This document shows positions 50,744 through 64,000 of a DNA stretch of 64,000 nucleotides, one piece after another. Position 1 is the stretch's first letter; every line of letters starts with the position of its first letter. This DNA comes from an uncultured Burkholderiales bacterium (GTDB lineage: Bacteria > Pseudomonadota > Gammaproteobacteria > Burkholderiales > Burkholderiaceae_C). The DNA is taken from NCBI GenBank assembly GCA_903820745.1, contig CAIJIT010000229.1, positions 1-64,000 of the forward strand. The letters are read 5' to 3'. The position numbers and the translations under genes are program-made. The notes beneath the pieces were generated by a model that did not search any database, was not told the DNA's origin, and saw nothing but the letters and a program-made list of their open reading frames with translations.

Positions 50744-51628
50744 TTATTGCTGACGGGGATCGAGCGCGTCGCGCAGCCCATCTCCGAGCAGATTGAATGA
50801 CAGCACCAGCGCAAAGATCGCCAAGCCGGGCCAGATCGCCATCCAGGGTGCGTTGTCGATGAAGTTCTTGGCGGTGTTGAGCATGCTGCCCCAGCTTGGC
50901 GCCGGTGGCTGCTGGCCCAGGCCGAGGAAGGACAGACTGGCTTCGGCGATCACCGCCGAGGCGATCGCCAGCGTGGCCTGCACCATCAGCGGCGCGGTGA
51001 TATTGGGCAGCACATGACGCAAGGCGATGCGCAGCGGCGGGTTGCCCACTGCACGCGCGGCCTCGATGTAATCCTCGACCTTGATGTTGAGCACCTGCGC
51101 CCTGGTCAGCCGCACGAAGATCGGCGTCGCTGAGACGCCAATCGCGATCATCGCGTTGGTCAGGCTCGGCCCCAGAAAGGCCGCCAGCGCGATCGCCAGA
51201 ATCAGGAAGGGACAGGCCAGGAAGGCATCGGTGATGCGCGAGATCAGGCCGTCGGTGAAGCCGCCGAGAAAACCTGCCGCCAGTCCGATCGGCACGCCCA
51301 GCAGCAGCGAAATCGAGACCGACACGACGCCGGCCGCTAGCGACGCTCTTGTGCCCCAGACCACGCGCGACAGCATGTCGCGACCGATCTCGTCGGTGCC
51401 GAACCAATGGGCGGCGCTGGGTGCTTTGCGGATCGCACCCCAGTCGGTGGCGATCGGATCCTGCGACGCAATCCAGGGCGCGAACAAGGCCATGGCGATG
51501 AACAGCAGGACGACGATCAGGCCGAGCAGTGCGCCGCGGCGGCGCTTCAAGCGGCGCCAGCCAAGCTGCCAGGGTCCGGCCTCATGTGCATCCTCATGCG
51601 CGGCCGTTGCTGCCGTTGCTGCGCTCAT
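50744..51628 (-). CDS. Dipeptide-type ABC transporter permease (DppC-like), second operon
   Basis: 294 residues. Six membrane helices with KAPSAAHWFGTDEIGRDMLSRVVWGTRASL after the first, and the EAA loop DYIEAARAVGNPPLRIALRHVLPNITAPL. It forms the pore with the preceding DppB-like subunit, whose stop it overlaps by ATGA. It is the last gene of an operon that runs amidase, two ATPases, receptor, DppB, DppC. Confidence 0.92.
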   Translation of the reverse strand: MSAATAATAAHEDAHEAGPWQLGWRRLKRRRGALLGLIVVLLFIAMALFAPWIASQDPIATDWGAIRKAPSAAHWFGTDEIGRDMLSRVVWGTRASLAAGVVSVSISLLLGVPIGLAAGFLGGFTDGLISRITDAFLACPFLILAIALAAFLGPSLTNAMIAIGVSATPIFVRLTRAQVLNIKVEDYIEAARAVGNPPLRIALRHVLPNITAPLMVQATLAIASAVIAEASLSFLGLGQQPPAPSWGSMLNTAKNFIDNAPWMAIWPGLAIFALVLSFNLLGDGLRDALDPRQQ

Positions 51629-52566
51629 GTCCTGAGCCTCGGATTGACCAGGAAGTAAGCCATGTCGGCGAGCAGATTCAGCAGGATATAGGCGCTGGCG
51701 GTGACCAGCACGACGCCTTGCACGACCGAGTAGTCGCGGTTGAACACCGAGTCAACGATCAGCTTGCCGAAGCCGGGAATGGTGAAGACCTGCTCGGTCA
51801 GCACCGCACCCGACAGCAGGGTGCCCAGTTCCAGCGCGCCCAGCGTGATGATCGGCGTCAGCGCATTACGCAAGGCATGCTTGAGTACGACCGTGCGAGC
51901 GCTCAGACCTTTGGCGCGCGCCGTGCGTACATAGTCGCTGGCGAGCACTTGCAGCATCGCGCTGCGCGTATGCCGCATCAGCACGGCGGCGATCGCATTG
52001 CCCAGCACGAAGGCCGGCATGATCATCGCGCGCAGGTTGGCGCCGAGATCCTCGAAGGGGCTGATATAGCCCGAAGCCGGCAGCCAGCCGAGCTGTACCG
52101 AGAACAGCAGAATCATCAGGATGCCGAGCCAGAAGTTGGGCGTCGACAAGCCCCAGAGCGCGAACAAATTGGCGCCATAGTCCCAGGCCGTGCCGCGGCC
52201 GACCGCCGAGATAATGCCGGCCGGGATGCCGATCAGCAGCGCAATCGCAAAAGCCAGCAGCGCCAGCTCCAAGGTCACCGGCAGTTTCTGCCCGATCAGC
52301 TCGAGTACCGGTTGCTGCGTGCGGATCGACTCGCCCAGGTCACCATGCAGCACGCCATCGACCCAATAGGCATAGCGCATCGGCAACGGCTCATCCAGGT
52401 GCAGCTTGACGCGCAGATAAGCCACCACCGTGGGATCCTGGTCTTCGCCGGCGAGGATCAGCGCCGGATCGCCGGGCAGCAACTGCTGCAGGCCGAAGAT
52501 CAGCATCGAGACGAAAACCAGCGTCGGCAGGATGCTGGCAAGTCGTTTGACGAGGAAATCAAACAT
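51625..52566 (-). CDS. Dipeptide-type ABC transporter permease (DppB-like), second operon
   Basis: 313 residues from MFDFLVKRLASILPTLVFVSMLIFGLQQLLPGDPALIL, the standard DppB/OppB start. VAYLRVKLHLDEPLPMRYAYWVDGVLHGDLGESIRTQQPVLELI follows, and the EAA loop is DYVRTARAKGLSARTVVLKHALRNALTPII. It begins 20 bp after the receptor gene ends and overlaps the DppC-like gene by 4 bp. Confidence 0.92.
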   Translation of the reverse strand: MFDFLVKRLASILPTLVFVSMLIFGLQQLLPGDPALILAGEDQDPTVVAYLRVKLHLDEPLPMRYAYWVDGVLHGDLGESIRTQQPVLELIGQKLPVTLELALLAFAIALLIGIPAGIISAVGRGTAWDYGANLFALWGLSTPNFWLGILMILLFSVQLGWLPASGYISPFEDLGANLRAMIMPAFVLGNAIAAVLMRHTRSAMLQVLASDYVRTARAKGLSARTVVLKHALRNALTPIITLGALELGTLLSGAVLTEQVFTIPGFGKLIVDSVFNRDYSVVQGVVLVTASAYILLNLLADMAYFLVNPRLRT

Positions 52567-52585
52567 CAGTGCGACAAGCAAATCT

Positions 52586-54091
52586 TCATGGCGCCAGAGT
52601 CAAGCCGGTCACGCGCAGCAGACCATCAGGAATATTGCGCACGCCGGCCAGCTTGTTGCTGTAAGCCCAGAGCCAGTTGCGGTGGTAGACATAGATGATG
52701 GCGCGCTCTTTCATGACGCGCGCGGCAATCTGCTCGAACAACTTCTTGCGCAGGGCGGGATCGCGCTGCGCACGTGACTGGTTCAGCAGGCTCTCTGTTT
52801 CAGCATCGCAATAGCCGGCGTAGTTCAAGGGCTGCTTGCAGCCATAGAAGCTGAACAGATTGCCATCAGGGTCAGCGCGGCCGCTCCAGGCCAGTACATA
52901 GGCTTCGAACTCGCCCTTGTCGGCCATGTTCAGCGAGGTGGCGAATTCAGCCGCTTGGATCTTCACGTCGAAACCGGCTTCGCGGCTCATCGCCTGCACC
53001 ACCAGCGCCAGTCGCTGCGCGTCCGAGGTCGTCGGCGTCACCAGCGTGAAACTCGGGCGCGGCACGCCGGCCTCCTTCAGCAGCGCTTTGGCGCGCGCGA
53101 TGTCGCGTTTGGGCATCGGCATGTTCTTGGCGTAATAGCTGTTGGTCGGCGGCACCCATTGGTTGCCCACGGTCGCCTCGTTGTCCATCACCACCTGGGC
53201 CAGACCCTGGCGGTCAAGCGACAACTCGAACGCTTCGCGCACCAGCGCGCTGCGGCCCAGCGGGTTCTTCTGCGCCAGCTCGCTCTTGCCGATATTGATC
53301 GTGATGCCCTGGTAACCGATTTCGGTGATGCGCGAGATCTTCAGCTTCTTGTCAGACTGCAGCTTCTCCATGTCGCTCGGTGCCAGGCGCTCGGCGAAGT
53401 CGAGCTGGCCCGATTTCAGATTGGCCAAGCGCACGGTCGCATCGGGAATCGGCGTGTAGATGACCTTGTCGAAATGCACCGCGTCCTTGTTCCAGTAAGC
53501 GCCGAAACGCTCGAACAGGATGCGGTCCTGCGCCACCCGCTCGACGAACTTGAACGGGCCCGAGCAGACGGGCTTCAAGCCGAACTTCTCGCCCGCGGCC
53601 AGCGCCGCTTTGGGCGAGACCATCATGCCGGCGCGGTCGGCCAGTTGGGCCAGCAGCGGCGAAAACGGCGCCGACAAGTTCAGCTTGACGGTGGCGGCAT
53701 CGATCACCTCGACGCTGCTCACCGGCGCCAACTCGCCGCGGCGGTTCGACCCGGGCATGGTCTTGTGGCGCTCGAGATTGAACTTGACCGCCGCCGCATC
53801 GAACTTCTCGCCGTCATGGAAGGTCACGCCGGGTCGCAGTTTCAGCGTCAGCGCTTTGCTGTCGGCCGACCATTCATAGCCGGTGGCCAGTTGCGGCACG
53901 ATCGCGAGCTTCTCGTCGATGTCGAACAACTTGTCGCACAGTGCGGCGAAAACGACCCGGCCGACAAAGCTGCGCGCCAGGCTCGGGTCGAGCACATCGG
54001 GGTCTTCAGCCAGCCCGACGCGCAAGGTCTGCCCATGCACTGCCAGGGGTAGCAGCAAGGCGGCGATGATGGTTCTGGTGCTGTTTTTCAT
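52586..54091 (-). CDS. ABC transporter substrate-binding protein, dipeptide type (SBP_bac_5)
   Basis: 501 residues from MKNSTRTII with a signal peptide ending AVHGQ. LRVGLAEDPDVLDPSLARSFVGRVVFAALCDKLFDID, KLRPGVTFHDGEKFDAAAVKFNLERHKTM and YCDAETESLLNQSRAQRDPALRKKLFEQIAARVMKE are typical of DppA/GsiB-like receptors. The operon also encodes an amidase, so the ligand could be a peptide, glutathione-like compound or amide-containing molecule that is then cleaved inside the cell. Confidence 0.93.
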   Translation of the reverse strand: MKNSTRTIIAALLLPLAVHGQTLRVGLAEDPDVLDPSLARSFVGRVVFAALCDKLFDIDEKLAIVPQLATGYEWSADSKALTLKLRPGVTFHDGEKFDAAAVKFNLERHKTMPGSNRRGELAPVSSVEVIDAATVKLNLSAPFSPLLAQLADRAGMMVSPKAALAAGEKFGLKPVCSGPFKFVERVAQDRILFERFGAYWNKDAVHFDKVIYTPIPDATVRLANLKSGQLDFAERLAPSDMEKLQSDKKLKISRITEIGYQGITINIGKSELAQKNPLGRSALVREAFELSLDRQGLAQVVMDNEATVGNQWVPPTNSYYAKNMPMPKRDIARAKALLKEAGVPRPSFTLVTPTTSDAQRLALVVQAMSREAGFDVKIQAAEFATSLNMADKGEFEAYVLAWSGRADPDGNLFSFYGCKQPLNYAGYCDAETESLLNQSRAQRDPALRKKLFEQIAARVMKERAIIYVYHRNWLWAYSNKLAGVRNIPDGLLRVTGLTLAP

Positions 54092-54126
54092 GGCGTTGAC
54101 CTCGGTTGAAAGATTGAAACGATAGC

Positions 54127-55197
54127 TCAGACCGCGCTGGGGATGAAGGCCGACTGCAGCCTGGCCAGCCGCAGCCGGGCGGCCGTCATGGCCGGCCTCG
54201 GGGGCAGTACCGCTGCAGCCGGCAGCTCGCGCCAGAAATGGCAAGCGACGGCCTGTGATGCATCGGCCCCTGCAGCTTCCAGGCGCGGCGTTGCCTGGGC
54301 GCAGAGCGCCTGCGCGTAGGGGCAGCGGGTGTGGAAATGGCAGCCCGCAGGCGGATTAACGGGGCTCGGCACATCGCCGGCCAGCAGCAAGCGCTGCCGC
54401 TGCAGCCCTGGCTCGGGCAGCGGAATCGCCGCCAGCAGCGCCTGCGTGTAGGGGTGGCGCGGCGCGGCGAACAAGGCCTCCTTGTCGCCGATTTCGACGA
54501 TGCGGCCGAGGTACATCACCGCGATCCTGGTGGCGATATGTTTCACCACCGCCAGGTCATGGGCGATGAACAGATAGGCGATGCCGAACTGCTGTTGCAG
54601 GTCCTGCAGCAGGTTGACCACCTGTGCCTGCACCGACACATCGAGGGCCGAGACCGCTTCATCGCAGACGATCAAATCAGGCTCGACCGCCAGCGCCCGC
54701 GCGATGCCGATGCGCTGCCGCTGGCCGCCCGAGAACTGATGCGGATAGCGCTGCTTGTGCTCGGGAGCCAGGCCGACGATGCGCAGCAACTCGGCCACCC
54801 GCTCAGCATGCCGCCCCTGATGCAGGCCATGCAGCAGCAGCGGCTCGGTCAAGGTCTGGCCGACCGTCATGCGTGGATTCAGCGACGAATAAGGGTCCTG
54901 AAAAATGATCTGCATCGAGCGTCGCCTGGCGCGCAGCGCATCAGCGTCGAGGCTGCCGAGGTCCTGGCCGCCGAAGCTGACGCGGCCCGCCGTCGGCTCG
55001 ATCAAGCGCAGCACCAAGCGGCCCAACGTCGATTTGCCGCAACCCGATTCGCCGACGATGCCGAGCGTCTCGCCACGCGCGAGGCTGAAGTCGACGCCAT
55101 CGACCGCGCGCACTGCACCGCTGACACGGCCGAACAGGCCCTGGCGGATCGGGAAATGCTTGACCAGACCGGTCACTTCGAGCAAGGGCTGATTCAT
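54127..55197 (-). CDS. Peptide ABC transporter ATP-binding protein (DppF-like)
   Basis: 356 residues. Walker [14 protein letters not shown]-loop [20 protein letters not shown], signature [15 protein letters not shown], Walker [13 protein letters not shown] and H-loop FIAHDLAVV. Note the A in place of P in the usual DEPxSALD. The oligopeptide C-terminal domain is present ([32 protein letters not shown]), followed by a unique Ala-rich tail. It overlaps the DppD-like gene by 4 bp. Confidence 0.92.
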
Positions 55198-56201
55198 GCA
55201 GTCTCCGGCCAGTTCGCCATCAAGACCTGCGGGTCAAGCGGCGCTTTCCAGCAGGCCGAGAAATGGTCAGTGCCGACTTGCTGCAATGCCGGCGCCTGGG
55301 CATGGCAATGGGCGTCGGCAAAAGGGCAGCGCTCGGCAAAGCTGCAGCCGGCCGGCCGGCGCAGCGGGCTCGGCACCTGGCCTTCGATCGATGCCAGCCG
55401 GTCGAGCTGTCCGTCCAGGCGCGGTATCGAGCCGAGCAGACCGATCGTGTAGGGGTGCTGCGGCGCCTCGAACAAGGTCTGCACCGGCGCGCGCTCGACC
55501 ACCCGGCCGGCATACATCACCAGCACTTCATCGGCGACTTCGGCGACCACACCGAGATCATGGGTGATCAGGATGATCGCGGCGCCGGTCTCCTGCTGCA
55601 ACCCGCGCATCAAGGCGAGGATCTGCGCCTGGATCGTCACATCGAGCGCGGTCGTCGGCTCGTCGGCAATCAGCAGGCGCGGCTCGCAAGCCAAGGCCAT
55701 CGCGATCATCGCGCGCTGGCGCATGCCGCCCGACAGCTTGTGCGGATGCTCGGCAAAGCGCTGTTCGGGCGCCGGCATGCGCACCTTGCGCAGCATCTCG
55801 AGCGCCCGCTCTTTCGCTTCGGCGCGGCCAATTTTGCGGTGCCGCAGCAGGCCTTCGACGATCTGCTCGCCGATCGTGAAGACCGGGTTCAGCGAGCTCA
55901 TCGGTTCCTGGAAGATCATCGCGATGCCGTTGCCGCGCAGGTCTTGCAGCTCGGCTTCAGGCGCGCCGACCAGCTCGCGGCCCTCGAAGCGGATCGACCC
56001 GCCCTTGATGAAACCGGGCGGGTTGGGCACCAGGCCCATGATCGACAGCGAGGTCACGCTCTTGCCGCAACCCGACTCGCCGACGATGGCCAGGGTACGG
56101 CCGGCTTCGACCGAAAAGCTGATGCCGTCAACCGCCGGGAACTCGCCGTCATCAGTCCTGAAATGAGTGCGCAACTCGCGCACTTCGAGCAAGGCCGTCA
56201 T
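55194..56201 (-). CDS. Peptide ABC transporter ATP-binding protein (DppD-like)
   Basis: 335 residues from [14 protein letters not shown], whose ATG overlaps the amidase stop. Walker [25 protein letters not shown]-loop [20 protein letters not shown], signature [15 protein letters not shown], Walker [13 protein letters not shown] and H-loop [14 protein letters not shown]. The C-terminal oligopeptide domain has the [15 protein letters not shown] cysteines found in DppD. It energises the second dipeptide-type importer. Confidence 0.93.
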
Positions 56202-57490
56202 TCGTTTTTCAACCATTCATGCAATTGATGGGCAAGCGCCAGCAAGGATTTGTCCTGCCCCCAACGGCCCACCAGTTGCAGCCCGATCGGCAGGCCCAGG
56301 CGGCCTTGGGTGAAGGGCAGATGCACGCAGGGCAGACCGAGCAAGGTCCAGCCGCGGCAGAACACCGGGTCGCCGGTGGCGCTGATGCCAGCAGGCGCCT
56401 CGCCGGTAGCGCTCGGCGCCAGGATCACATCGAAGCGGTCGAACAGTGCATCGACCACGCGCTGCGCTGCCGCGGTGGCGACAAGTTCGCGCAGATGCTG
56501 GTCGCCGCCGATGGTCATGCCTTCATCGAGCAGGGCCAGCAGCCTGACGCTGAGGCGGTCCCGGTGCTGCACCCGCTCATGGCTCAAGGCCCGCGCCATC
56601 TCGAAAGCCATCACTGATTTTTGCAAAGCGACCAGGCCATGGAGCGCTGGTGGCAGCGCGAGGTCGGCCAGACTGGCATGAGGCGCCAGGCGCTTCACCG
56701 CCAGCTCCCAAGCCTGTCCCATATCAGCATCGGCAAGATGCCATTCAGGCCCGCGGCACAAGCCGATGTTTGGCCGGAAGTCCGCTGGCAGGGCCTCGGG
56801 CATACGCATATCGCCGCTCAGCACCGCGCCGAGCAGGGTGACATCGCGCACGCTGCGGCCGAATCCGCCAATGACGTCGAGCGCTTCAGACAGGCTTTTC
56901 ACCCCGGCGCGCGGCACCAGGCCCAGGCTCGGCTTGTAGCCGACCACGCCGCAATAGGCGGCCGGCCGGATGATTGACCCGGCAGTCTGTGTGCCCAGCG
57001 CCAGCGGCAGCATGCAGGCAGCAACCGCGGCGGCCGATCCGCTCGACGATCCGCCCGGTGTATGCGGGCTGCCGGCCTGGCTGTGTGGGTTGACCGTGGG
57101 GCCGGGCTGGAAATAGGCGAATTCGGTGCTGACCGTCTTGCCCGGCAGCAAGGCGCCGGCCTCGCGGCACAGCGCCACGACGGCAGCATCGGCCACCGGT
57201 TGGTGCCCGGCGTAAAGCGCTGAACCGTAACTGGTCGGCATCCCGGTCGTATCGATCAGGTCTTTCACCCCCAGCGGCAGACCATGCAGCAGGCCGCGCA
57301 GCGGACCAGCGTCGAGTGCCCTGGCATGCGCCAGCGCCGCGTCGGCGTCGAGATGCGCAAAGGCGTGGACCTCGGCTTCGCGCAGCTCGATCTGGGCTAG
57401 GCAGGCGCGCATCAGATCGACCGCGCTGATCTCGCGCCTCGCCAGCAGCGCTGCGGCTTGCCAAGCTTGCAACTGGTGCAGGTTTTTCAT
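56198..57490 (-). CDS. Amidase (amidase-signature family)
   Basis: 430 residues. The Ser-cisSer-Lys triad is visible: K in [20 protein letters not shown], the Gly/Ser-rich block [45 protein letters not shown] with the cis-Ser and nucleophile Ser. It hydrolyses an amide to acid and ammonia or amine. It lies inside a dipeptide transporter operon, overlapping the upstream peptidase remnant (TGATG) and the downstream ATPase gene, so it probably acts on the imported compound. Confidence 0.92.
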
Positions 57491-57630
57491 CAAGCTGTCC
57501 CGTTCCAGTCCTTGATCAGGTCGTTGAACAAGGTGGTGGCTTCAGCGATCCGGTCGACATGGCAATATTCATCGGTCTGGTGTGCCATCTCGGCTTGACT
57601 GGGCCCGAGGATTACCATCCGCGGGCCGCC
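57490..57630 (-). pseudogene. C-terminal remnant of an M20-family peptidase/deacetylase
   Basis: The frame ends GGPRMVILGPSQAEMAHQTDEYCHVDRIAEATTLFNDLIKDWNGTA, which matches the last 45 or so residues of M20/ArgE-like metallohydrolases, including the conserved AHQTDEY with its metal-binding His. Nothing of the catalytic core precedes it; upstream bases to about 57879 do not continue the homology. The stop still overlaps the amidase start, so an M20 gene was probably once the first gene of this operon. Confidence 0.7.
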
Positions 57631-57879
57631 GCGAGGCTGCTGCGGAGTTGATTGGTGTAGGGCATCAAGAAATCCTCGGTAAAAGGGAAATTGACAAACA
57701 ACAGTGGCGATGGCGATTGTGGGGCCTTCCAACCCGGTCGGGTCAGATCAATTCTGACCTTGCAAGTTCTGCGCCAACAGCTGGCGTTCCGTTGCTGAGC
57801 GGCAGTTCTGGCCACAAAGCATCGCCACAGCCAGGATTGATGCACCAGGTTGATGCATCAATGCCCACGACGGACGGCT

Positions 57880-58782
57880 TCAGGCCATCGGCGCAATGGC
57901 GCTGTCCGGGCGTTCGAAGACCTGGGCGAGGCAACTGAGGAATTCGGCGCACAAGGCCTGCTCGATGCGCTGGCGGGCATGGACCGAATAGACCCTGAAT
58001 TCCACCGCCGGTTCGAAGCGAATTGCTTTCACCCGGGGCATCTGCAAGGTCCTGACCACCAGCGGGTTGACGACGCTGACGCCCAGGCCCATGCCTACCA
58101 TCGTGCAGATGGTGGCCGCATAAGGCGTTTCGAGGTTCATGCGGCGGCTGCCAGGCTTGAATGCAGCGTCGACCTTGCTGCGGCTTTCGTCGCCGCTGCC
58201 CAGCGAAATGAATGACTCGTCGTCCAGATCCTTGGCCCTGATCAGTTGCTTCGATGCCAGTCGGTGCTTTGCAGGAACGATGCAGAGTCCGTTTTCGCGG
58301 TACAGCAGCCGCTCCTTGACCTCTTGCAAATCGGGCACATAGGAAGCCAGACCGAAATCACAAAAACCGGAGGCAACCCATTTGCAGACTGTGGCCGAGT
58401 CGCTGGTGTGAACGCGGATCAGCACATCCGGGTGCGCGATGCGAAACGACTGGATCGCATGCGGCAGGACACCGATGGCCAAAGCCGGCGAGGCACCGAT
58501 CCTGAGACCGCCCGTCCCCAAAGCCTTGATCGCGGTCGCAGCATCGCGGATGTTGTGCAAGCCGACAAAGGTCCGTTCCACTTCCACATACAGGGCTTCT
58601 GCCTCGGGGGTTGGCACCAACCTGAGCCCGACCCTTGCGAACAGCTTGAGGTCCAGTTCGCGCTGCAACTTTGTGATCAGTCGGCTGATATTGGGCTGGG
58701 AGGTATGCAGTTGTGCCGCTGACAAAGTCATCGACCGGGTCAGCATGACGGAGCGAAAGGCCTCGATTTGCTTGAAGTCCAA
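57880..58782 (-). CDS. LysR-family transcriptional regulator
   Basis: 300 residues. The N-terminal winged helix is MDFKQIEAFRSVMLTRSMTLSAAQLHTSQPNISRLITKLQRELDLKLFARVG. An effector-binding domain (about 90-295) contains LRIGASPALAIGVLPHAIQSF. Its sequence resembles the OccR/NocR-like group that senses opines and amino-acid derivatives, but only loosely. It is divergent from the ArgH-like operon over a 95-bp gap, the classical arrangement for a LysR activator of that operon. Confidence 0.9.
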   Translation of the reverse strand: MDFKQIEAFRSVMLTRSMTLSAAQLHTSQPNISRLITKLQRELDLKLFARVGLRLVPTPEAEALYVEVERTFVGLHNIRDAATAIKALGTGGLRIGASPALAIGVLPHAIQSFRIAHPDVLIRVHTSDSATVCKWVASGFCDFGLASYVPDLQEVKERLLYRENGLCIVPAKHRLASKQLIRAKDLDDESFISLGSGDESRSKVDAAFKPGSRRMNLETPYAATICTMVGMGLGVSVVNPLVVRTLQMPRVKAIRFEPAVEFRVYSVHARQRIEQALCAEFLSCLAQVFERPDSAIAPMA

Positions 58783-58799
58783 GAGATCACCCCGGTCTG

Positions 58800-58821
58800 A
58801 TGCTCCATATCAAAATTGCAT
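58800..58821. promoter_or_regulatory. Candidate LysR-type binding site
   Basis: ATGC (58800-58803) and GCAT (58818-58821) form a weak interrupted dyad in the 95-bp gap between the lysR gene and the divergent ArgH-like operon. The arms are short, so this is suggestive only. Confidence 0.25.
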
Positions 58822-58877
58822 GAAGCTTGAGAAAGTCGGTATTTGACTGCATTTTCCTCGCTTGCGATACTGATTTG

Positions 58878-60392
58878 GTGAACAAGTCAAAAGTAAGCCG
58901 CAGGTTGACCGAGTCCACGGCCCCCGAGGTGTGTGAACATATTTACGCGCCCCGCCTGGCGAGAGACTTTCCCTCGGGCTTTGAGTACCTCGGTGACATC
59001 AACCAGGCGCATCTGTTGATGCTGCACCGGGCCGGCCTGCTTTCTGATGAGGACGCATCCGGGCTGGCCCAGGCCCTGTTGCGGATGGAAGCCGAGGGCG
59101 CCAGCGCAGTGCCGCTTGACCCGGCGCTCGAGGATGCCTACTTCAACTTCGAAGCCCAGCTGATGCGCTTGGCCGGGGCTCATCTTGGCGGTTGCTTGCA
59201 TGTGGCCCGCAGCCGCAACGACATTCTGGCAACGCTGGACAGGATGCGGGCGCGCCAGCTCGCCGTCAGCCTGATCGACGGCTTATGCGCTGCCCGTTGC
59301 ACGGCGCTTGAGGGGGCGATCCGGCATGCCCAGGTGGTCATGCCGGGCTATACCCATCTGCAGCCGGCTCAGCCGATCACCTTTGGTTTTTACCTGTTGG
59401 GCCTGGCCGAAGCACTCGGCCGGGACATCACGCGCATCCGGCAATTGCAAGCCGGCCTCGACCTTTGCCCGCTGGGAGCCGGGGCAATTGCCGGCACATC
59501 GTTTCCGATCCTGCAGCAAGAAAGTGCCCGCCTGCTCGGCTTCAGCAAAGCTGCGGCCCATTCGCTCGACGCCGTAGCCTCACGTGATTTCGCACTCGAA
59601 TTGATGTCGGCGATGGCCATCGCCGGCATTGGTTCAAGCCGGATCGCCCAGGACTTCTATGTCTGGTGCACGCATGAGTTCAGTCTGGTGGATTTCCCGG
59701 ACAGCGTGGCGGGTACCTCGAGCATGATGCCGCAGAAGAAAAACCCGGTGGTGCTTGAATATCTGAAGGGCAAGGCAGGCCACCTGGTGGGCCTGTTGAT
59801 GGCCGCGATGGCGACCATGAAGGGCGTGAATTTCACCCATACCGGCGATGGCAGCCGTGAAACCATGCGCAGTTTGTGGGAGGCGGGCGACGAATCGCTG
59901 CATGTCCTCAAGATGCTCGATCTGGTCCTGCGCACGGCCATACCCAATGAAGAAGCGATGCTGCGCCGGGCCCGTGAGGATTTCTGTGCAGCCACGGATC
60001 TGGCCGATGCGCTGGTGCGAACTTCGGGCTTGTCGTTCCGCGAGGCCCATCATGTGGTGGGTGCCGTGGTCAGGTCTGCCATGACCCGTTTGCTGGCTGC
60101 GCATCAGATCAGCTCGGAGATGGTCGACGAGGCCGCTTTGGCGCAGATCGGCCGGCGTCTGGAACTGGGAGATCAGGCGGTGCGCGATTGTCTGGACCCC
60201 GCCCGCAGCGTCAGCAGCAGAACCTTTGGCGGCGGACCTGCGCCGGCCATCGTGCTGGAGCGAGCCGCCCTTTTGCTCAAGGAATGCGCGCTCGAACAGC
60301 AGGCCAACCTTGAACGCAGCCATGCCTTCGCACAGGCGCGGCTTGAGCTGAAGCGATCGCTGCGCGCGCTGATCATCCCTGCCCCAGCTTGA
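58878..60392 (+). CDS. Argininosuccinate lyase-like (ArgH/fumarase superfamily) lyase
   Basis: 504 residues from a GTG; TTG codons upstream are alternatives. HVARSRNDI, GYTHLQPAQPITFGFYLL and the flexible signature loop GTSSMMPQKKNP, with its catalytic Ser, define the superfamily. Members cleave C-N bonds to release fumarate. True ArgH is about 460 residues and usually near arg genes. Here the gene is longer, follows a LysR gene and leads a Bug receptor/oxidase operon, so it more likely splits an N-substituted aspartate, as EDDS lyase does. That role is inferred. Confidence 0.85.
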   Translation: MNKSKVSRRLTESTAPEVCEHIYAPRLARDFPSGFEYLGDINQAHLLMLHRAGLLSDEDASGLAQALLRMEAEGASAVPLDPALEDAYFNFEAQLMRLAGAHLGGCLHVARSRNDILATLDRMRARQLAVSLIDGLCAARCTALEGAIRHAQVVMPGYTHLQPAQPITFGFYLLGLAEALGRDITRIRQLQAGLDLCPLGAGAIAGTSFPILQQESARLLGFSKAAAHSLDAVASRDFALELMSAMAIAGIGSSRIAQDFYVWCTHEFSLVDFPDSVAGTSSMMPQKKNPVVLEYLKGKAGHLVGLLMAAMATMKGVNFTHTGDGSRETMRSLWEAGDESLHVLKMLDLVLRTAIPNEEAMLRRAREDFCAATDLADALVRTSGLSFREAHHVVGAVVRSAMTRLLAAHQISSEMVDEAALAQIGRRLELGDQAVRDCLDPARSVSSRTFGGGPAPAIVLERAALLLKECALEQQANLERSHAFAQARLELKRSLRALIIPAPA

Positions 60393-60429
60393 CCCTCGCC
60401 CATCCCGCCACTGATCACAGGAGTTCCGC

Positions 60430-61404
60430 ATGAACGCCATGACTTTTTGCAAAGCTGTTTCGTCCGTCCTGCTCTGCGCCGCTGGGAGCCTGGCATTCGC
60501 CCAGGACTTGCCGCCAGCGCCGATCAGGATGGTGGTCGGGTTCGCGCCTGGCGGGGCCAATGACGTCATCGCAAGAGTGATTGCGACGCCGTTGCAGGCG
60601 CAGATCAAGTCGACGGTGATCGTCGAAAACAAGCCCGGCGGCGGCAGTACCGTCGCAACTGCCGAACTCGCGAAGGCGCCGGCGACCGGGCAAATGCTGT
60701 TGCTCGGCTCGACCGGCGGACAAGCAATCGCGCCAGCGATCTACGACAAACTTCCCTACGACCCGGTCAAGAACGTCCAACCGGTCACGATGGTCGCCAA
60801 GTCGGCCATCGCCATTGTCGTCAACGATGCGCTGCCGGTCAAAAATGTCCAGGAATTGATCGCCTATGCGAAAGCCCATCCCGGGCAACTGAATGTGGCT
60901 TCGCCGGGCAATGGCACCGGTTCGCACCTGGCAGCTGAGCTCTTCAAGAGCATGGCCGGTGTTGCCATGACCCATATTCCCTACCGTGGCGATGCGCCTG
61001 CGATGCAAGATGTGATGGGCGGTCAGGCGCAGCTGACTTTTGCCAGTCTGCCTTCGGCGATTGCCGGTGCACAGACCAATCGCGCCAGAATCATTGCGGT
61101 GACCAGCGCCAATCGCGTGCCGATGCTGGCCAGCACCCCGACGGTGATCGAATCCGGGCTGCCAGGGTATGAGGTGCTCACTTGGTATGGCGTTTTCACC
61201 ACCGGCGGTACGCCGGTAGCGGTCGTGAACCGGTTGGCTGCGGAAATCGGTCAAGTGCTGGCCCAACCTGCCGTGCGCGAGGCGATCAGCAAGATGGGCA
61301 TGGAGGCCGCACCCTCCAGCCCGGAAGAATTCAGCCGGGTCGTCAACAGCGACATGGCCCGTTGGGGCGCGGTGGTGCGTTCGGTCGGCATCAAGGTGGA
61401 CTGA
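60430..61404 (+). CDS. Bug/TctC-family periplasmic solute-binding protein
   Basis: 324 residues with a signal ending LAFAQ. LPPAPIRMVVGFAPGGANDVIARVIATPLQ, ENKPGGGSTVATAELAKAPATGQMLLL, NVASPGNGTGSHLAAELFKSMAG and HIPYRGDAPAMQDVMGGQAQLTF match the family. AGGAG precedes the ATG. It lies 37 bp after the ArgH-like gene, and its stop overlaps the next start (TGATG), so it probably binds the substrate of this catabolic operon. Confidence 0.92.
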   Translation: MNAMTFCKAVSSVLLCAAGSLAFAQDLPPAPIRMVVGFAPGGANDVIARVIATPLQAQIKSTVIVENKPGGGSTVATAELAKAPATGQMLLLGSTGGQAIAPAIYDKLPYDPVKNVQPVTMVAKSAIAIVVNDALPVKNVQELIAYAKAHPGQLNVASPGNGTGSHLAAELFKSMAGVAMTHIPYRGDAPAMQDVMGGQAQLTFASLPSAIAGAQTNRARIIAVTSANRVPMLASTPTVIESGLPGYEVLTWYGVFTTGGTPVAVVNRLAAEIGQVLAQPAVREAISKMGMEAAPSSPEEFSRVVNSDMARWGAVVRSVGIKVD

Positions 61405-62546
61405 TGGCCGATGCCGGATTGAGCTCTGACTGCATCGTGGTGGGCGGTGGCCTGGTAGGCGCCTCGATCGCCTATGGCCTGGCGCGCTCGGGCGCCAGCG
61501 TGATCGTGCTTGACGAAGATGACAAGGCCTTGCGTGCCACCCGCGGGAACTTCGGCCTGATCTGGGTGCAGAACAAGGGCATCAGCATGCCCCAGTATTC
61601 GGCCTGGAGCCGGGATGCGGCCAGACTCTGGCCAGGTTTTGCCAGTCAGTTGTTGTCCGAGACCGGGGTCGACGTCAATTTGCAACAGCCAGGGGGCTTA
61701 TGTCTATGTCTTTCTGAGGCCGAACTGCTCGAACGCGAGCAAAGCCTGCTTGCCATCCAGAAAGCCGTGTGCGGCGACTATCCCTTCGAAATGCTCGACC
61801 AGCAGGCGCTGCGCCAACGGCTCCCGGCGATCGGCCCTGAGGTTGTCGGTGCGAGCTTCACACCGATGGATGGGCATGTGAACCCGCTCAAGCTCTATCT
61901 TGCCTTGCTGCAGGCCTGCCGGCAAATGGGCGTGCGGATCTGTCATGCCGCCCATGCCGGAAAGATCGAAGCCTCGGATGACAAGGGTTTCCGCGTGAGT
62001 TGCGGCCCGGTCAACTACCGGGCTGGCAAGATCGTGCTGGCCGCCGGGTTGGGTAACCGGGACTTGGCCGAGCAGGTCGGCCTCTACGCGCCAGTGGTGC
62101 CGACCCGAGGCCAGGTGTTGGTGACCGAGCGGCTGCGGAAATTTCTCGATTACCCGACCAACAAGCTGCGCCAGACGGATGAGGGCGCCGTGCATATCGG
62201 CGACTCGGTCGAGGATGTCGGCTTCGACGACCGCACCACCACCGATGTGCTGCAGTTCATGGCCCGCCGCGCGGTCAAGTCATTTCCCTTGCTGCGGGAT
62301 GTCAACCTGGTGCGCGCCTGGGGCGCATTGAGGGTGATGACGCCCGACGGGTTTCCCCTTTACGAGCAGTCGACCCTTCACCCCGGCGCTTATGTGGTCA
62401 CCTGTCACAGCGGCGTGACGCTTGCAGCCGCGCATGCGCTGCGGGTGGCGCCCTGGATTGCTGGCGGCTCGGTTCCGGCCGAGATCAGCGAATTCACTGC
62501 CGCGCGCTTCAGCCGTGGCCTGGCCCGTCCGATGTACGTCAATTGA
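61404..62546 (+). CDS. DAO-type FAD-dependent oxidoreductase (opine oxidase/hydroxyproline dehydrogenase beta-like)
   Basis: 380 residues. The Rossmann motif is CIVVGGGLVGASIAYGLARSGASVIVLDE. RATRGNFGLIWVQNKGISMPQYSAWS and the C-terminal GVTLAAAHALRVAPWIAGG belong to glycine/D-amino-acid-oxidase-type flavoproteins. With the next two genes it matches the three-subunit dehydrogenases for opines, D-hydroxyproline or HCN synthesis, in which this subunit oxidises the C-N bond. The exact substrate is not determined. Confidence 0.87.
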   Translation: MADAGLSSDCIVVGGGLVGASIAYGLARSGASVIVLDEDDKALRATRGNFGLIWVQNKGISMPQYSAWSRDAARLWPGFASQLLSETGVDVNLQQPGGLCLCLSEAELLEREQSLLAIQKAVCGDYPFEMLDQQALRQRLPAIGPEVVGASFTPMDGHVNPLKLYLALLQACRQMGVRICHAAHAGKIEASDDKGFRVSCGPVNYRAGKIVLAAGLGNRDLAEQVGLYAPVVPTRGQVLVTERLRKFLDYPTNKLRQTDEGAVHIGDSVEDVGFDDRTTTDVLQFMARRAVKSFPLLRDVNLVRAWGALRVMTPDGFPLYEQSTLHPGAYVVTCHSGVTLAAAHALRVAPWIAGGSVPAEISEFTAARFSRGLARPMYVN

Positions 62547-62552
62547 GCCCTC

Positions 62553-62885
62553 ATGAGTGACACCCCTGCCTTCAGAACCTTGTCGGAAAACGCAGCAAGC
62601 CGGGTCGAAATTTTCTTCGATGGACGGCCGCTGCAGGTGCCGGCCGGCCAATCGGTGGCGGCTGCTTTGCTGGTCGGGGGTGTGCAGATCTTCCGGGAGA
62701 CGCCGGTCTCCGCAGCGCCGCGCGGCCCCTATTGCATGATGGGTGTCTGCTTTGAATGCCTGCTGGAAATCGATGGCCTGCAGAACCGCCAGGCCTGCCT
62801 GACAACGGTGCGCGAAGGCATGAAAATCCGCACGCAAATGGGTGCCCGCATGCTCGCGGCCGGGGGAGCTGTTGATGCTGGATGA
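62553..62885 (+). CDS. Small [2Fe-2S] subunit (HcnA/opine oxidase gamma-like)
   Basis: 110 residues. EIFFDGRPLQVPAGQSVAAALLVGGVQIFRETPVSAAPRGPYCMMGVCFECLLEIDGLQNRQACLTTVREGM is the ferredoxin-like fold with C-x4-C-x2-C and a later Cys for one [2Fe-2S] cluster. It shuttles electrons between the two flavoprotein subunits. It starts 6 bp after the DAO-type gene and overlaps the next gene by 11 bp. Confidence 0.88.
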   Translation: MSDTPAFRTLSENAASRVEIFFDGRPLQVPAGQSVAAALLVGGVQIFRETPVSAAPRGPYCMMGVCFECLLEIDGLQNRQACLTTVREGMKIRTQMGARMLAAGGAVDAG

Positions 62886-64000
62886 GCCGATCGAACTGGC
62901 CATCGTCGGTGCCGGGCCGGCCGGCATGGCTGCAGCCCTGACCGCGCGCTCGGCAGGTCTGTCGGTCGTGGTTCTCGACGAACAGGCCGCACCGGGCGGG
63001 CAGATCTATCGCGCGGTGACATCGGCAACGACCGGGCGCTGCGATGTCCTGGGTCCTGACTATGCTGCTGGCCGCGAGTTGGCGCGTGACTTCGAGGCCA
63101 GCGGCGCGCGCCATGAATACGGCGCTGCGGTCTGGCAGGTCACGCCAGAGGGTCGGGTCCATTACCTGCAGGCGGGCCAGTCCAGGATGATTGAACCCGG
63201 CAAGGTCATCCTGTGCACCGGCGCCATGGAGCGGCCCTTCCCCATTCCCGGTTGGACCTTGCCTGGGGTGCTGACGGCCGGTGCTGCCCAGATTCTGCTC
63301 AAGACCGGCGATGTCGTGCCTGCCGATCCGGTGGTGCTTGCGGGTTGTGGACCCTTGCTGTACCTGCTCGCCTGGCAATATCTGCGCGCCGGTGTTCCCA
63401 TCAAGGCCTTCATCGAGACCACGAGTCCGGCCGACTATCGCCGGGCGCTGGTGAAGTTGCCTGCTGCGCTGATTCAGTGGCGCTTGCTGGCCAAGGGCAT
63501 CGGCCTGAAGGCGGCGCTGCTCGGGAGCGGCGTGCCCATTTTCAGTGGCGCCCGGGAGTTGAGGATCGAGGGCGGCAAGTCAGCCGAGGCGATCGAATTC
63601 CGCACAGGCAACCAGCAACACCGGGTCGAAGCGCGGGTCTTCTTGTTGCATCAGGGGGTGGTGCCGAATACCCAGATCACCTGGTCATTGCGCGCCAGCC
63701 ACGTCTGGGATCAGGCGCAGCTTTGCTGGACGCCGCAGGCTTCAGTTGGTGGTGAACTGATCGGTTTGCCAGGCATCTTCATTGCCGGAGATGGTGCCGG
63801 CATCATCGGTGCCGAGGCCTCCAGGCTGAGCGGCCGGGTGGCCGCGCTGGCCGCGCTGCAAGCGCTGCGGGGCAGCCATAGCGATGCGCAATTCGAGAGT
63901 GAAGCCGCAGCCTTGTTGCGCGACCTGCGCCGCGCGACTGCAGCGCGGCCCTTTCTTGACGCGCTGTATCGACCCAGAGCCGAATTCCGGATTCCGGCAG
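62875..64000 (+). CDS. FAD/NAD(P)-binding oxidoreductase subunit (HcnB/OoxA-like), truncated by the window end
   Basis: Open from an ATG at 62875 to the end of the window (375 codons, no stop). MLDEPIELAIVGAGPAGMAAALTARSAG is the FAD Rossmann motif, then DEQAAPGGQIYR. CTGAMERPFPIPGWTLPGVLTAGAAQILLK, and VVLAGCGPLLYLLAWQYLRAGVPI with FIAGDGAGIIGAEASRLSGRVAALAAL, follow. This is the alpha subunit of opine-oxidase or hydroxyproline-dehydrogenase-type complexes. A BFD-like [2Fe-2S] domain would be expected beyond the window. Confidence 0.85.
   Translation, partial: MLDEPIELAIVGAGPAGMAAALTARSAGLSVVVLDEQAAPGGQIYRAVTSATTGRCDVLGPDYAAGRELARDFEASGARHEYGAAVWQVTPEGRVHYLQAGQSRMIEPGKVILCTGAMERPFPIPGWTLPGVLTAGAAQILLKTGDVVPADPVVLAGCGPLLYLLAWQYLRAGVPIKAFIETTSPADYRRALVKLPAALIQWRLLAKGIGLKAALLGSGVPIFSGARELRIEGGKSAEAIEFRTGNQQHRVEARVFLLHQGVVPNTQITWSLRASHVWDQAQLCWTPQASVGGELIGLPGIFIAGDGAGIIGAEASRLSGRVAALAALQALRGSHSDAQFESEAAALLRDLRRATAARPFLDALYRPRAEFRIPA

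Follow-up and report, generated by a model that had tools for sequence, protein, structure and literature searches.

The right-hand end of the window (the 64,000-nucleotide stretch analysed here, positions 1-64000 of contig C229, CAIJIT010000229.1, of an uncultured Burkholderiales bacterium) carries a LysR-controlled operon whose moderately probable role, judged from sequence, is the catabolism of an N-substituted aspartate. A fumarate-releasing lyase related to argininosuccinate lyase (ArgH) would cut the compound, a dehydrogenase of the opine dehydrogenase kind would act on the product or on a companion compound, and a Bug-type periplasmic receptor would serve uptake. The source genome is a 5.1-Mb draft in 357 contigs with an estimated contamination of 4.25%; contig C229 continues to 120,580 bases, and this extension was used for genes past the window end. 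The operon and its regulator comprise:

57880-58782, minus strand: LysR-family regulator, TTG start, HTH_1 and LysR_substrate domains, divergent from the lyase gene
58878-60392, plus strand: ArgH-like lyase of 504 amino acids, GTG start, Lyase_1 and ASL_C2 domains
60430-61404, plus strand: Bug/TctC periplasmic solute receptor (PF03401, 220.9 bits)
61404-62546, plus strand: DAO-type flavoprotein of the beta (catalytic) subunit type (PF01266)
62553-62885, plus strand: [2Fe-2S] protein of the gamma subunit type (Fer2_4)
62875-64257, plus strand, running past the window end: FAD/NAD(P) protein of the alpha subunit type (Pyr_redox_2, SO_alpha_A3 and Fer2_BFD)

A preliminary description of this DNA had listed these five plus-strand genes in this order under a LysR regulator; all are present, the LysR gene lying just to the left of the range that it described. 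The GTG start of the lyase at 58878 lines up with the MESKVSRR start of its relatives, and the FAD/NAD(P) gene may start at ATG 62875 or, alternatively, at GTG 62842. The DAO gene overlaps the Bug stop codon and the FAD/NAD(P) gene overlaps the [2Fe-2S] gene, suggesting a single transcript.

The lyase: outside the ArgH and EDDS lyase groups

The genome encodes six members of PF00206. One of them, on contig C16, is a canonical argH (619 bits, with the motif YNKDNQEDK), which rules out the window lyase as the genome's only argH. The relation to ArgH that had been proposed for the window lyase is borne out by its domains and by its score against the argH model TIGR00838 (367.2 bits, cut-off 279.5), which means that automatic annotation would name it argH. 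That cut-off is not discriminating, because other members of the clade to which the window lyase belongs (below) also pass it, at 342-383 bits; public records label clade members argH, and misannotation of this kind is likely to be widespread. A match to XcbC falls below its cut-off.

Shared with ArgH are the fold, a tetramer-type catalytic loop and the fumarate-side residues. The window lyase retains the loop TSSMMPQKKNP together with R113, N114, T159, H160 and N289. In contrast, it has a different N-terminal part and is without the YNKDxQEDK stretch, which we take to contact the arginine half of the substrate in ArgH; THTGDGSRETM stands at that position.

The closest solved relative is the lyase for ethylenediaminedisuccinate (EDDS) of Chelativorans sp. 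BNC1 (6g3d; 31-32% identity in structural alignment), also an ArgH relative. It is the top PDB sequence match (6.5e-71, with Thermus thermophilus ArgH next at 1e-70), and it comes first in a Foldseek search (1.6e-29, then ArgH at 3.4e-26) with an AlphaFold2 model of mean predicted local distance difference test score (pLDDT) 90.3. The available part of PMC12363623 names R112, N113, Q159, N288, D290 and Y320 as substrate residues of EDDS lyase. This set is incomplete in the window lyase: only the equivalents of R112, N113 and N288 are kept, whereas Q159, D290 and Y320 are replaced by H160 (as in ArgH), V291 and H321. Taken together, the alignments support a conserved fumarate-binding half and a differing amine half.

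Phylogenetic analysis places the window lyase, with its relatives, in a separate and uncharacterised clade of ArgH-like lyases. The tree has 53 rows (18 of the window clade, 19 ArgH and 3 EDDS lyase; L014_Fluvi and L118_G014 left out), and a FastTree analysis of 55 rows, which includes those two, agrees with it; EDDS lyase and ArgH are represented among the references by incomplete sequences. The branch separating each of the window clade, the ArgH rows and the EDDS rows has a Shimodaira-Hasegawa-like approximate likelihood ratio (SH-aLRT) support of 100. In approximately unbiased (AU) tests, holding the window lyase and its G017 counterpart with ArgH is rejected (p 1.07e-5), as is holding them with EDDS lyase (p 6.2e-41). 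(What is not rejected is either group as the neighbour of the whole window clade, with p 0.058 for ArgH and 0.16 for EDDS lyase.) The phylogeny proposed earlier thus sets the window lyase inside neither group, and membership of the EDDS lyase family, a candidate that the residues at Q159, D290 and Y320 also speak against, is rejected.

The dehydrogenase complex and the Bug receptor

The three genes at 61404-64257 have the beta-gamma-alpha order, with overlaps, of flavin-containing opine dehydrogenases (OdhABC, Nox and Oox), for which the accessible part of PMC4575208 reports that order together with FAD and [2Fe-2S] motifs. The DAO protein has GGGLVG and RAW, matching GxGxxG and RxW; the [2Fe-2S] protein has C-x4-C-x2-C-x12-C, matching C-x4-C-x2-C-x11-12-C. 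The four cysteines of the FAD/NAD(P) protein, to which Fer2_BFD matches, are spaced C-x-C-x27-C-x4-C, unlike the published x15-20. The joining to a lyase is a further difference from those described systems, within the same part of that source. Identity to three genes of the C58 Ti plasmid (pTiC58) is 41% for the DAO, 38% for the [2Fe-2S] and 40% for the FAD/NAD(P) protein. Those genes adjoin arginase and ornithine cyclodeaminase genes and, by their position, we take them to be the nopaline-oxidase genes (the beta subunit NoxB-like).

The complex had been called opine-oxidase-type. Its opine-dehydrogenase kind is upheld by gene order, motifs and the pTiC58 identities, but the word oxidase is not: characterised relatives were found to have dehydrogenase and not oxidase activity, as far as the available text of PMC4575208 goes, and by analogy the window complex should be called a dehydrogenase if it behaves like them. 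The same text describes change of opine dehydrogenase function through exchange of the catalytic subunit.

The best solved relative of the Bug receptor is a terephthalate-binding protein (8hka), with BugD lower, and no ligand is named thereby. The receptor is 66-70% identical to the Bugs of the 17 Cupriavidus modules described below, and 33-38% (in one case 41%) identical to other Bugs near such complexes. A search of 300 genomes of the order at E 1e-100 found no relative beyond G565, one of the Cupriavidus genomes.

Recurrence of the pairing in Cupriavidus

Sixty Cupriavidus genomes were taken as an even draw from the larger genus. Relatives of the DAO protein (E 1e-50) occur in 30 of them, and 39 have the lyase. 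In 17 the DAO gene is part of a fixed module, LysR-DAO-Fer2-FAD/NAD(P)-Bug, arranged in another order than the window operon; the lyase accompanies this module in every one of the 17, as against 22 of the 43 other genomes (Fisher p 1.8e-4, relatedness ignored). This recurrence and the conservation of the operon block in G014 and G017 (below) indicate more than a chance association. Lyase and module are adjacent in six of the 17 (G565, G1166, G1167, G1176, G1187 and G1188). Among the 11 non-adjacent cases, nine have them on different draft contigs; in G1163 and G1171 a single contig bears both, at distances of about 22 and 116 kb.

The clade of window lyase and G565 lyase, the latter with an adjacent module, is rejected (AU test, p 5e-4). 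Since the lyases form no clade, the joining of lyase and dehydrogenase is not a simple descent of one nested linked pair. The pairing is optional, because most Cupriavidus lyases lack a neighbouring dehydrogenase and because the window dehydrogenase is not closest to that of Cupriavidus. The combination emphasised in the preliminary description thus recurs in a second lineage. Two findings speak against a strict unit of two enzymes: an adjacent complex is missing at most loci of the clade, and the complexes closest in sequence to that of the window lie in loci without a lyase.

Regulator and operator-like site

The divergent LysR and lyase genes are separated by 95 bases, within which lies a conserved stretch:

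58807-58847, plus strand: operator/promoter-like candidate site, ATATCAAA-N4-CATG-N-ATTTGAC, with a -10-like hexamer GATACT downstream

In a search allowing one mismatch per part, 8 of the 14 lyase loci included have this motif upstream of the lyase, and the window's own genome has it at one place (backward control, none). The window LysR shares 53-60% identity with the LysR proteins next to lyase loci of type A, among them L009, L156, L165 and L168.

Neighbours of related lyases

Genes beside other clade lyases bear on the nature of the substrate. An asparaginase gene adjoins the lyase at four loci (L157, L159, L160 and L287), an aspartate racemase at L166 (134 bits, cut-off 93), and an MmgE/PrpD protein lies near it in L160 and L287. 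The L160 protein has iminodisuccinate epimerase as its best PDB match (2hp0, 1e-59; next IRG1, 3e-42). Asparaginase, epimerase and racemase fit a lyase that would act on an N-substituted aspartate and leave an amino acid or amine; variation of neighbours between loci implies that substrates may vary too.

An iminodisuccinate epimerase and a C-N lyase make up a pathway known from Agrobacterium tumefaciens BY6. Clade member L160 resembles that system in adjoining an epimerase-family protein. Unlike it, the loci nearly identical to the window operon (L118 and L119) lack an MmgE/PrpD epimerase gene for 7 kb around the lyase.

SIS proteins are encoded in L159, L160 and L287 and a PfkB kinase in L160. 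All three loci also hold an amino-acid ABC (ATP-binding cassette) transporter, and L159 a fructoselysine 6-kinase. These clusters look like a route for Amadori compounds, in which fructosyl-aspartate would perhaps be split to fumarate and fructosamine. L008 has genes for a gamma-glutamyltransferase, TcuAB and a D-amino-acid-dehydrogenase-like protein. Two genes for SfnB-type sulfur-acquisition oxidoreductases follow the lyase in L225, L226 and L227, the last two of which also have MetQ and an ABC ATPase.

Proposed pathway

The substrate would be an aspartate substituted at its nitrogen. An imino-diacid is the likeliest kind, with a second carboxyl-bearing group on that nitrogen; the closest named candidates we take to be iminodisuccinate, succinopine-type opines and fructosyl-aspartate. 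The Bug receptor would bind this substrate or a companion compound. The lyase would cut the bond between C2 of aspartate and the nitrogen, so that fumarate is released and an amino acid or amine remains. The alpha-beta-gamma flavin/Fe-S dehydrogenase, presumably membrane-linked, would then oxidise a C-N bond, either in what the lyase leaves or in an opine-like companion compound. The resulting imine would hydrolyse to a keto acid, electrons passing to the respiratory chain. Substrate and leaving group, enzyme activity, uptake, the sequence of the two steps and joint transcription are all inferred. The lyase has about an even chance of acting first; that the dehydrogenase does so is unlikely, and parallel use of the two enzymes on related compounds is unlikely to the same degree.

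A broader proposal is more tentative: that the clade annotated as argH is a catabolic fumarate-releasing family, joined here to a subunit-swapped opine dehydrogenase in a two-cut route for an aspartate-type opine. In the open-access literature searched, no bacterium is known to use an aspartate-derived imino-diacid of this type as a nutrient, and no paper on such a lyase-dehydrogenase operon was found. If the proposed role is correct, a catabolic branch of ArgH-like lyases, present in 39 of 60 Cupriavidus genomes and now named argH, would be defined. It would also point to a natural pool of N-substituted aspartates, and would offer a compact gene set with a single operator-like site for substrate finding, as well as possible biocatalysts for N-substituted aspartates.

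Several observations weigh against a joint pathway of lyase and dehydrogenase on an N-substituted aspartate. Inspection of all 43 lyase loci in the Cupriavidus genomes shows 37 to be without an adjacent DAO module (a LysR match is next door in 36, in two cases in two pieces, and a Bug gene follows directly downstream in 27). Of 23 DAO loci that have no lyase beside them, none shows the operator-like motif. The window complex is closest, at 60-62% identity, to complexes of ABC-transporter/RidA loci without a lyase (L223, L277, L278 and L279) and only 48-50% identical to that of the Cupriavidus module (the DAO tree includes one very long branch, L011). Because their nearest relatives differ, Bug and complex have different histories and no one nearest source. 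Elimination of sulfur or oxygen groups also occurs in this superfamily (the XcbC match below its cut-off; the S-(2-succino) lyase 2SL, PMC9706529).

Alternative explanations

Two independent catabolic units might simply stand side by side, LysR and lyase for one compound and Bug and DAO complex for another. Each unit does also occur alone, and the operator-like motif is confined to the lyase; yet the genes overlap in one apparent operon, and the Cupriavidus association (co-occurrence in 17 of 17, adjacency in 6) extends to another genus, so that we regard full independence as rather unlikely.

The leaving group could instead be sulfur: an S-(2-succino) lyase would salvage cysteine from succinated thiols, with enzymes of the gamma-glutamyltransferase and M19 types trimming glutathione adducts. 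2SL is, as far as the accessible part of PMC9706529 describes it, a lyase-class-I enzyme that releases fumarate and belongs to a catabolic locus, in all of which the window lyase would resemble it by predicted activity. A gamma-glutamyltransferase gene adjoins the lyase in C. respiraculi, an M19 dipeptidase gene follows the window operon, and SfnB genes stand beside three clade lyases. Against this, the acetyltransferase and M20 deacetylase that 2SL loci carry are not seen among the window genes scanned, and the asparaginase, aspartate racemase and iminodisuccinate-epimerase-like neighbours point to nitrogen. The comparison with 2SL is one of description and locus content, the lyase tree comprising no 2SL sequences; it leaves a sulfur substrate improbable.

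A narrow aminopolycarboxylate pathway of the EDDS/iminodisuccinate type, in which an EDDS lyase is followed by a step like that of iminodiacetate oxidase, draws on the rank of EDDS lyase in the structure and PDB sequence searches (barely ahead of ArgH), and on an outside relative in Neoroseomonas marina that sits with an NtaA/DmoA monooxygenase, a Dpp/Opp transporter and a DAO complex. However, EDDS clade membership is rejected, no monooxygenase is seen among the window operon genes, and the lyase of N. marina does not belong to the window clade; this pathway is quite improbable.

A second argininosuccinate lyase, in an operon for exogenous argininosuccinate or an arginine opine with arginine passing to the dehydrogenase, is very improbable: TIGR00838 and the public argH names speak for it, but the arginine-side motif is absent, the D290 and Y320 positions are replaced, grouping with ArgH is rejected, the model's cut-off is passed by the clade at large, and a canonical ArgH is encoded elsewhere in the genome.

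Genome setting and further observations

The base composition of the operon genes is ordinary: their GC content at third codon positions is 0.70-0.78, and the 47 genes called to the left of 57 kb have a median of 0.77. G014 carries the operon block at 94-100% identity, and G017, up to a contig end, at 93-99%; the lyase is present in two of 17 other genomes of the genus searched. The genome has TctA permease genes at two sites, of which one is on C229. Inspection of the genes further to the right, as had been suggested, shows that the FAD/NAD(P) gene is followed on the same strand by:

64464-65480, plus strand, beyond the window: M19 dipeptidase
65499-66488, plus strand, beyond the window: second Bug receptor

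Further right (L007 7861-8808 and 14644-15723) lie two look-alikes of the formamidase/acetamidase (FmdA) family, the first of which scores 79 bits, below the FmdA cut-off.

To the left of LysR, minus-strand genes at 51625-57493 encode a dipeptide/glutathione-type ABC transporter, its solute-binding protein closest to GsiB, and an amidase. This Dpp/Opp transporter is present in G017 (L119); in G014 (L118) no high-identity transporter match adjoins the amidase within the stretch examined, and the transporter's inclusion in the operon unit is weakened. Between amidase and LysR, an 80-amino-acid open reading frame (57490-57732, minus strand; 86% identity in G014, 96% in G017) matches nothing in Pfam at 1e-6 or in NCBIfam at 1e-10.

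Other ArgH-like lyases occur in the same genome. The one at L006 1138-2733 (G000:C130), with relatives in G017 and G014, has by eye a Sec-like signal peptide and an adjoining Bug gene (L124); it is possibly a periplasmic fumarate-releasing lyase. Another paralog (L005 1099-2733, G000:C309; L123), which scores 212 bits against the argH cut-off of 279.5, is followed by several Bug genes. The N. marina locus (L011 2048-16764), whose ArgH-like lyase the tree places outside the window clade, contains the NtaA/DmoA monooxygenase, DAO/Fer2/FAD-NAD(P) genes, the Dpp/Opp transporter, another DAO gene and a glutaminase A gene. Three genomes of one family, 2.4-2.9 Mb in size (G053, contig C22, L120; G736; G651), encode several ArgH-like lyases each (eight matches in G053, weak ones included); one guess is that these supply fumarate for respiration.

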